From the NCBI GenBank assembly GCA_019695185.1, contig JAIBAN010000010.1, positions 1-64,000 of the forward strand: a stretch of 64,000 nt of DNA. Reading direction: 5' to 3'. A program made the position numbers and the translations under genes. This DNA comes from Blastocatellia bacterium (GTDB lineage: Bacteria > Acidobacteriota > Blastocatellia > Chloracidobacteriales > Chloracidobacteriaceae). This document shows, in pieces, positions 56,243-57,952 of the stretch (position 1 is the stretch's first letter; the number at the start of each line of letters is the position of its first letter). The notes beneath the pieces were generated by a model, which had not been told where the DNA came from, did no database searches, and worked only from the letters and a program-made list of their open reading frames with translations.

Positions 56243-57289
56243 TTAAAACCTGATCACCGTGTCCGGGCCACCTTCAATATGAACCGTATCAACGAACCGA
56301 ACCTGATGAGGCTGGGTTTTCATAATCAGCGAGGCCGTCCGCTTGCCGGTGCCGAAAAACCGGACACCGCGAACCACTTTTCCATCCGTGACCCCGGTCA
56401 TGACGAAAATAATGTTTTTCCCAGGAGCGAGGTCATCGGTTTGATAAATCTGAAGAGGGTCTGATAAACCCATGCTTTTCATACGTGCCAGCGTGTCAGA
56501 GTCTTCAGAGACTTTGGAGTAGTCTTCCTGGTGGAGTTGATCTTTGAGAACGAACCGGGCCTGGATTTCCCCGTTTAAACATTTCATCGCGGCGGCTGTC
56601 AGCACGCCTTCCGGAGCTCCGCCAATGCCCATGACGGCATGCACTCCCGAGCCCCCGACAGCGGCGCTGATGCCAGCCGAAAGGTCACCGTCACTAATAA
56701 GCTGAATGCGGGCTCCGGCAGCCCGAATGTCTTTGACCAGTTTGGCATGGCGTGGGCGGTCCAAGACCGTTACGACCAGGTCCTCAATGCTGCGCCCCAG
56801 ACGGCGGGCCAGAATCTTCAGGTTGTCCTTAACCGGAGCATCAATGTCAAGGCAACCTCGAGCGGCCGGCCCTACGACCAGTTTGTTCATGTACATGTCA
56901 GGGGCATTGAGCAGGCCACCCCGTTCGGCCGCAGCCAGCACGGCAATGGCATTGGCGGAACCCGTGGCACAGAGATTGGTTCCTTCGAGAGGGTCAACCG
57001 CAATGTCAACCGCCGGAAAGGGGTTGTTTTCATCCGGCAGTTCAGCCCCCATGCCAACCCGTTCACCGATATATAACATGGGGGCTTTGTCACGCTCACC
57101 TTCTCCAATCACAATCCGCCCGTTGATGGGAACCGTCCGCATGGCATCGCGCATGGCTTCAACTGCGGCATGATCAGAAAATTTACGGTCGCCCTGGCCC
57201 ATGGTGCGAGTGGAGGCAATGGCAGCGGATTCGACAACCCGGAGAAACTCCAGGGAAAGGGCAGGGGGAAGGATTGAGGTTGCAGTCAT
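56243..57289 (-). CDS. glpX: Class II fructose-1,6-bisphosphatase
   Basis: This enzyme hydrolyses fructose-1,6-bisphosphate in gluconeogenesis and can act on sedoheptulose-1,7-bisphosphate. The 348-residue protein is full length. Metal-binding segments are [13 protein letters not shown] and [10 protein letters not shown], followed by the substrate segment [19 protein letters not shown]. The gene follows the Cys-cluster small protein after about 74 bases on the same strand, so it may share transcription with the microcompartment genes. Confidence 0.95.
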
Positions 57290-57363: not shown

Positions 57364-57621
57364 TTAAAAACCACGGGTCTGACAGCGGTCACACTGGTCG
57401 CAAGGCTTATCGGTTTCAAACAGACAGGCTTTGGCTTGAAGGAACTCAAGGAGTTCATTGAGATCACCCGGCAACGGGGCAAAGCGTTCCTGACTCGGAT
57501 GGGGAAGGTCAGGCGCGGACCCCAGGGGCAGGGAAGTCGGTGGTGGAGGAGAGTTGGTTTCAGTGCCCCGGACGCGCCGAAGAATCTGAGCGGTCATCGT
57601 CTGCAACAGTTGTTCATCCAT
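57364..57621 (-). CDS. Small Cys-cluster protein with encapsulation-peptide-like N-terminus
   Basis: An 85-residue protein. The first 18 residues ([18 protein letters not shown]) form an amphipathic helix like the encapsulation peptides of microcompartment cargo enzymes. A Pro/Ser/Thr-rich linker follows, then a helix [13 protein letters not shown], and a C-terminal cluster CDQCDRC (C-x2-C-x2-C) with one further Cys just before. The cluster could bind a metal or iron-sulphur centre. It starts 22 bases after the EutN-type gene, in the same direction. I do not recognise the family. An in-frame start further upstream (57765) would overlap the EutN gene and is less likely. Confidence 0.6.
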
Positions 57622-57643
57622 AAGAAGGTGCCCCCCAAGCAGT

Positions 57644-57952
57644 TCAATTCGGTTGTGTCGGATCAGTTGGCCCTGGTTTCGGATGGGGCTCAATGGAATC
57701 CACCACCGCAATGATGGCCGCATCAATCGCAGCTCCCTCCCGGTCGGTCGAGGCGGTCGAGGCACTCCAGCCTTCCTGAACCACGATCACCCGGTCTCCG
57801 ATGCCTGAATCCAACACATCGAGGACCAGGAAACTGGAACCCTGCTCCGTGCCGTCGGGTGCGATGGGCTGCACCAGGAGCATGCGCCCCCCCTGGTACC
57901 GTTCGTTTTTTTGGGTTGCCACGACATTTCCAATGACACGGGCCAAATTCAT
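57644..57952 (-). CDS. Bacterial microcompartment vertex protein (EutN/CcmL family)
   Basis: A 102-residue protein of the pentameric BMC vertex family. It opens with MNLARVIGNVVATQK, then GGRMLLVQPIAPDG and VLDVLDSGIGDRVIVVQEG, and ends with GAAIDAAIIAVVDSIE. These match the strands of EutN/CcmL. Such pentamers cap the corners of protein shells. No hexameric BMC-domain shell gene and no signature enzyme lies in the window. The next gene downstream carries an encapsulation-like helix, and coaBC is divergent. It may be an outlying piece of a larger shell locus or an orphan vertex protein. Confidence 0.88.
   Translation of the reverse strand: MNLARVIGNVVATQKNERYQGGRMLLVQPIAPDGTEQGSSFLVLDVLDSGIGDRVIVVQEGWSASTASTDREGAAIDAAIIAVVDSIEPHPKPGPTDPTQPN

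Follow-up and report, generated by a model that had tools for sequence, protein, structure and literature searches.

The vertex gene and the small gene that follows it in this stretch of DNA are best explained as a satellite of an ACI-type metabolosome, in which the small protein would be a lumen-targeted, low-copy accessory joining cargo to the P3 shell; we hold this reading with about even confidence. The family of the small protein, recognised by a C-terminal Cys tail, is linked to BMCs: it occurs almost only in Acidobacteriota genomes that carry a pentamer gene, and it is usually the gene next to it.

The window, that is, the whole stretch that was analysed, comprises 64,000 nucleotides of a contig from a Blastocatellia bacterium. 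Its relevant features are the following:

57644..57952, minus strand: BMC-P vertex protein, P3 of the ACI-type pentamer triplet (PF03319 and class profiles; motif VVQEGWSAS)
57364..57621, minus strand: 85-residue BMC-associated Cys-tail protein, stop codon included (alignment search, Acidobacteriota genomes)
57565..57621, minus strand: encapsulation-peptide-like N-terminal helix, residues 1-19 (AlphaFold2 helix and similarity to Pdu peptides)
57502..57564, minus strand: Pro/Ser-rich linker, residues 20-40 (sequence; pLDDT about 53, without secondary structure)
57493..57501, minus strand: H-P-S motif, residues 41-43 (family conservation)
57367..57426, minus strand: C-terminal Cys tail C-x7-C-x2-C-x2-C-x3-G-F-COOH, residues 66-85 (57/57 family sequences)
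56243-57289, minus strand: glpX (TIGR00330, E 7e-110)

The vertex protein (102 aa) matches PF03319 (EutN_CcmL) over the full profile (positions 1-83 of 83) at E 7e-23 and 81.3 bits, above the curated cut-off of 25, and is a BMC-P protein of the EutN/CcmL family. The small protein starts 22 bases past the vertex stop codon, with its ATG at 57621 and its stop codon at 57364-57366, and is encoded by a single-copy gene in the genome. A sequence-only reading of the stretch 57364-57952 had described the EutN/CcmL vertex gene, the 22-base gap and the 85-residue length, and these coordinates proved exact; glpX does follow the pair, and the divergent plus-strand gene from about 58 kb onwards reads, by inspection, as coaBC. 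The order P3, Cys protein, glpX is kept in the genomes G003 and G010 as well as in the window. As glpX adjoins the pair in G000, G003 and G010 only, it is probably a housekeeping neighbour. The small protein has no match in Pfam, NCBIfam, PHROG or PADLOC. Its search against NCBIfam returned nothing up to E 1, and hence no sequence match to the PduM or TIGR02536 models; the Pfam search likewise gave no match up to E 1, and hence none to a Fer4-type ferredoxin profile.

Within the window neighbourhood there is no hexamer and no signature enzyme, as the sequence-only reading had remarked, and this would favour an orphan vertex gene beside an unrelated small ORF. The genome as a whole does not bear out the term orphan. 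Its 8.33 Mb, in 222 contigs, contain two BMC-H genes, one tandem BMC-T gene and four BMC-P genes, so that the proposed search for BMC-domain genes elsewhere in the genome succeeded. On contig C31, a class II aldolase (PF00596, E 6e-46) adjoins a BMC-H (E 2e-29), and about 39 kb from the aldolase a second BMC-H lies beside a EutE-like aldehyde dehydrogenase (AldDh; TIGR02518-like) with a long C-terminal extension; the fourth BMC-P is found further along this contig. On C73, a PduT-like BMC-T (TIGR02526, E 8e-37) directly adjoins a PduS/RnfC-like protein, and C86 and C39 carry one BMC-P gene each. Profiles built from relatives assign the pentamers of C86, C39 and the window to the classes P1, P2 and P3, respectively, P1, for which a profile of its own could not be made, being recognised by a low P3 score and the motif SSARLA.

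Sutter et al. (2021) describe the ACI type as having a PF00596 class II aldolase, a pentamer triplet, a basal BMC-H and a satellite AldDh (PMC8217296). They confine the type to Acidobacteria, list a hydroxyacid dehydrogenase (PF00389/PF02826) among its components and state that the locus holds several proteins without assigned function. A C-terminal encapsulation peptide on the aldolase is a further trait of the type. In the genome studied here, the PF00596 aldolase lies next to a BMC-H, the BMC-P triplet is complete and the AldDh is on a satellite locus; as aldolase, triplet, basal hexamer and satellite AldDh match the ACI list, the compartment of this genome is of the ACI type. The genome encodes a whole ACI-type microcompartment, which differs from the published locus in being spread over several contigs (PMC8217296). 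The same scattering is observed in two other genera of the same taxonomic family (G003 and G001), and in one small-genome genus of that family BMC-P is absent and the small protein has no significant match.

Several further observations were made on the scattered components. The fourth BMC-P (L012:16324-16656, C31) fits P1 to P3 poorly and has a counterpart in G003, on C24. The C31 aldolase ends in ...TLTRRELIDLLDRAAQLAAKGNR, which is encapsulation-peptide-like (EP-like) in appearance, judged by eye only. The extension of the ACI AldDh (L012:9117-10931, C31) holds an EP-like helix and a IITPAARDLGRE tail; many TIGR02536 matches span only the last 50 positions of that model, in ORFs of 520-630 aa, and possibly represent the same AldDh tail.

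The family distribution was established with searches of increasing breadth. A single-sequence search of 58 relatives gave matches at E 1e-3 or better in 25 genomes, located just downstream of BMC-P. A single-sequence scan of a collection of genome contigs found nothing, because the linker diverges, and alignment searches were needed. An alignment limited to the C-terminal part (A2) detected members in 60 of 396 Acidobacteriota genomes, and a wider alignment (A6) in 86 of the 396, all at E 7e-7 or better and none between that value and the cut-off of 1e-3. PF03319 is present in 164 of these genomes, including 85 of the 86 that bear the family (Fisher 6e-39, a figure that serves as a guide and not as an independent-event probability, the genomes being related). 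The remaining genome is a MAG of 67 % completeness, in which the gene borders the end of a contig. Of the 53 loci read, 49 have a BMC-P gene on the same strand, 83-689 nt upstream of the small gene, and three of the four exceptions are at contig edges. In the fourth (G277), as well as in G386 and G419 (L149, L270-L274), about 28 kb separate the gene from an intact aldolase-BMC-H-P1-P2-P3 locus. Outside the class, searches with the Cys tail only gave matches in loci of the order aldolase, BMC-H, three BMC-P genes and Cys protein where the contig was sufficient.

The association of the family with BMC loci, which the sequence-only reading had proposed to look for, is therefore present as both co-occurrence and linkage, where the lack of any BMC gene and of co-occurrence would have spoken against that reading. 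Hexamers elsewhere in the genome, together with this phylum-wide co-occurrence and synteny, rule out the pair as chance neighbours, a view to which we attach practically no probability. The family is widespread but not universal in Acidobacteriota: several genomes (families f2, f3, f5 and f8) have an intact aldolase-BMC-H-P1 locus and no Cys protein, indicating that the gene is dispensable in some lineages, and in G306 the small-protein gene was not found. Fifty BMC-bearing genomes of other phyla, mostly Firmicutes, yielded no real family members. Weak matches, nine in number and with E no higher than 0.01, arose there. Of the five looked at, two were alcohol dehydrogenases, one was an ATPase-like protein and one resembled DNA polymerase III delta-prime; for the fifth, the matching frame was not recovered.

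In the broken-up loci, the gene mostly keeps with P3. The two genes stand together in three genera of the taxonomic family of the window, and elsewhere in the class the arrangement is P2-P3-Cys, apart from aldolase-BMC-H-P1. As the gene stays with P3 after the locus broke up, these arrangements suggest P3 as the partner, or a shared low dosage.

The small protein is conserved at its two ends. All 57 family sequences end in C-x7/8-C-x2-[C/S]-x2/3-C-x3-G-[F/H/Y], and the protein stops with the final residue of this motif. The distinct tails, 54 in number, all have Cys 1, 2 and 4; at position 3, 49 of them have Cys and 5 have Ser, and the residue three past Cys 1 is Glu or Asp. The C-x2-C-x2-C cluster of the sequence-only reading is thus present, but a fourth conserved Cys (C66) had been missed and the motif is C-x7-C-x2-C-x2-C. 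Among 461 ORFs of the window and nearby relatives' loci, C-x7/8-C-x2-C-x2-C occurs in family members only, and the ORF is conserved phylum-wide, so that the motif is not a product of chance; the DnaX of neighbouring loci, considered as its source, has no such motif. Upstream of the tail, H-[PAST]-S is found in 43 of the 57 sequences, with H invariant and S near-invariant in the Blastocatellia members; in the window protein, an HPSQERF stretch lies between the N-terminal helix and the Cys tail. The linker varies in length and sequence across the family.

At the other end, AlphaFold2 run on the single sequence predicts a helix at residues 3-17 (pLDDT 74-79) and an unstructured region to residue 53, with a mean pLDDT of 63 that leaves the helix alone usable. 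The N-terminus was compared with reference signal peptides that we take to be those of PduL, PduP and PduD. Its best ungapped BLOSUM62 score, against the PduL peptide, was 38 (background mean 2.8, sd 6.9), which none of 349 other N-termini reached, in agreement with the resemblance to cargo-targeting helices noticed earlier; the whole family lies above background (p 1e-16, for related sequences). The hydrophobic moment of the helix is unremarkable, with 19 % of the background as high. The predicted helix and the unstructured region after it correspond to the arrangement of an encapsulation peptide, an amphipathic N-terminal helix of about 15-20 residues followed by a flexible linker. Most family members start with a helix of this Pdu-like kind; some, including G057, G053 and G038 and some in family f4, have a coiled-coil or a short N-terminus instead of a clear EP.

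The C-terminal tail is likely metal-binding. Its resemblances to PDB structures involve Zn or Fe-S loops and are all sub-significant. The first three Cys of the tail share their x7, x2 spacing with the C-terminal Cys segment of HydE, and there is a similarity to the Zn lobe of alcohol dehydrogenase (IEPGVPCGHCRYC, E 0.036, not significant). Common to these are CxxC-type loops of the pattern E-P-G-x-x-C or C-x7-C-x2-C, but the alcohol dehydrogenase and HydE loops are internal rather than C-terminal, with E-values of 0.04 to 1.4, and the likeness would at best be one of convergent loops.

If the metal were an Fe-S cluster, the protein could be a lumenal redox carrier, passing electrons from lumen enzymes to the PduT-like pore trimer and the PduS-like reductase. 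The genome has the required pair on C73, its PduT-like BMC-T has, within a TICSGK stretch, a Cys that we take to be the pore position where PduT bears its cluster, many members have a CxxCGxC core resembling ferredoxin loops, the HydE-like spacing fits, and the long relatives of the family contain a flavoprotein-like domain. Against this, of the 58 related genomes only 3 contain a relative of PduS and 5 a clear tandem PduT, compared with at least 25 that have the Cys protein, which does not support PduS/PduT as its general partner; a carrier would at best use another one. In addition, Cys 3 is replaced by Ser in 5 of 54 tails, and the structural resemblances stay below significance. We consider this role rather unlikely. 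As a separate observation, the adjoining PduT-like and PduS/RnfC-like genes (L014:4720-6585, C73) are shared, among the 58 relatives, by G003 and G010 only.

Another conceivable function is Zn handling, in which the protein would serve the encapsulated class II aldolase as a chaperone or as a buffer. The class II aldolase family uses a divalent metal, the ACI cargo is a PF00596 aldolase, and the non-significant similarity to the alcohol dehydrogenase Zn lobe points the same way. This function is improbable, as some genomes have the aldolase and lack the small protein, and in the taxonomic family of the window the gene travels with P3 and not with the aldolase.

The history of the family may be read from its longer members. 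In the long relatives of G010 and G017 (212 and 242 residues), an additional domain stands between the EP-like helix and the same Cys tail. The G010 protein matches TIGR02536 (eut_hyp, a family of ethanolamine BMCs) at E 7e-10, below the family cut-off, and a profile of the two long forms aligns with Firmicutes BMC flavoproteins at a probability of 96.7 % and E 4e-10 (hhalign); three of the latter pass the PF02441 cut-off. Partial versions of about 125-180 residues occur in other classes, and those of family f11 align with the long forms at a probability of 95 % (E 3e-8) and, more weakly, with the flavoproteins at one of 63 % (E 7e-5). The family thus forms a length series from 242 aa down to about 70 aa, which fits a history in which the middle domain was lost repeatedly and both ends were kept, a direction that we infer from the sequences and not from a tree. 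Such graded lengths could also belong to a shrinking, functionless relic of a BMC flavoprotein, but a relic would decay, whereas both ends are conserved across classes and the exact C-terminus is kept in 57 of 57 sequences, which makes this very improbable.

We infer for the small protein a lumenal location, metal binding, docking at P3, an adaptor role and a low copy number. Under the satellite reading preferred here, P3 would cap the shell vertices, the N-terminal helix of the small protein would enter the cargo core like other encapsulation peptides and the flexible linker would span the gap. The four-Cys tail may fold around a metal, either Zn or that of an Fe-S cluster, and dock on the shell, with P3 or a place beside it as the likeliest site, and the protein would thereby couple cargo to shell in the manner of PduM and CcmN. 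A more specific version, which we put forward only tentatively, is an adaptor at the vertices, where it would anchor cargo to pentamers by a C-terminal Cys-metal or redox-switchable knuckle and that derives from a lumenal flavoprotein stripped to helix and tail.

ACI compartments are common in soil Acidobacteria, and to our knowledge their substrate has not been established, nor has any accessory protein of theirs been characterised. The Cys-tail family would provide a clean marker for them and a candidate assembly or redox factor. A P3 pentamer with its own conserved partner gene raises the question of why the triplet pentamers differ, and the series from flavoprotein to helix plus tail shows two ends kept by selection. 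The earlier suggestion of a cargo or adaptor not yet described is largely supported, in that the small protein is BMC-linked and no paper naming the Cys-tail family was found in the literature; it is not described in the available text of PMC8217296, and it may figure in the supplementary locus listings of that article.

Two known groups of proteins invite comparison. The first comprises the TIGR02536 or PF02441-like flavoproteins, with which the long relatives share the EP-like start and the middle domain; the TIGR02536 proteins of Firmicutes differ in ending in a different tail that has no Cys motif, and the window protein lost, or never had, the middle domain. The second is PduM, whose gene neighbours the vertex gene pduN. 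PduM is of low abundance, is located in the core and has an N-terminal signal sequence required for the link between shell and core, which partly separate when it is missing (PMC12108088; PMC9132943). Although its description in PMC12108088 allows it no homologues beyond the Pdu system, three Firmicutes TIGR02536-type flavoproteins (L192:18549-19334, L170:13074-13898 and L169:11790-12623) match the C-terminal part of the PduM models, with a best E of 6e-5. PduM differs from the short form in that no sequence similarity between them was detected and no Cys tail is described for it. Taken as an analogy of role and not as a proven relative, PduM would nevertheless offer the same picture as the short form: a low-copy accessory encoded beside a vertex gene, with an N-terminal signal helix and no recognised enzyme domain.
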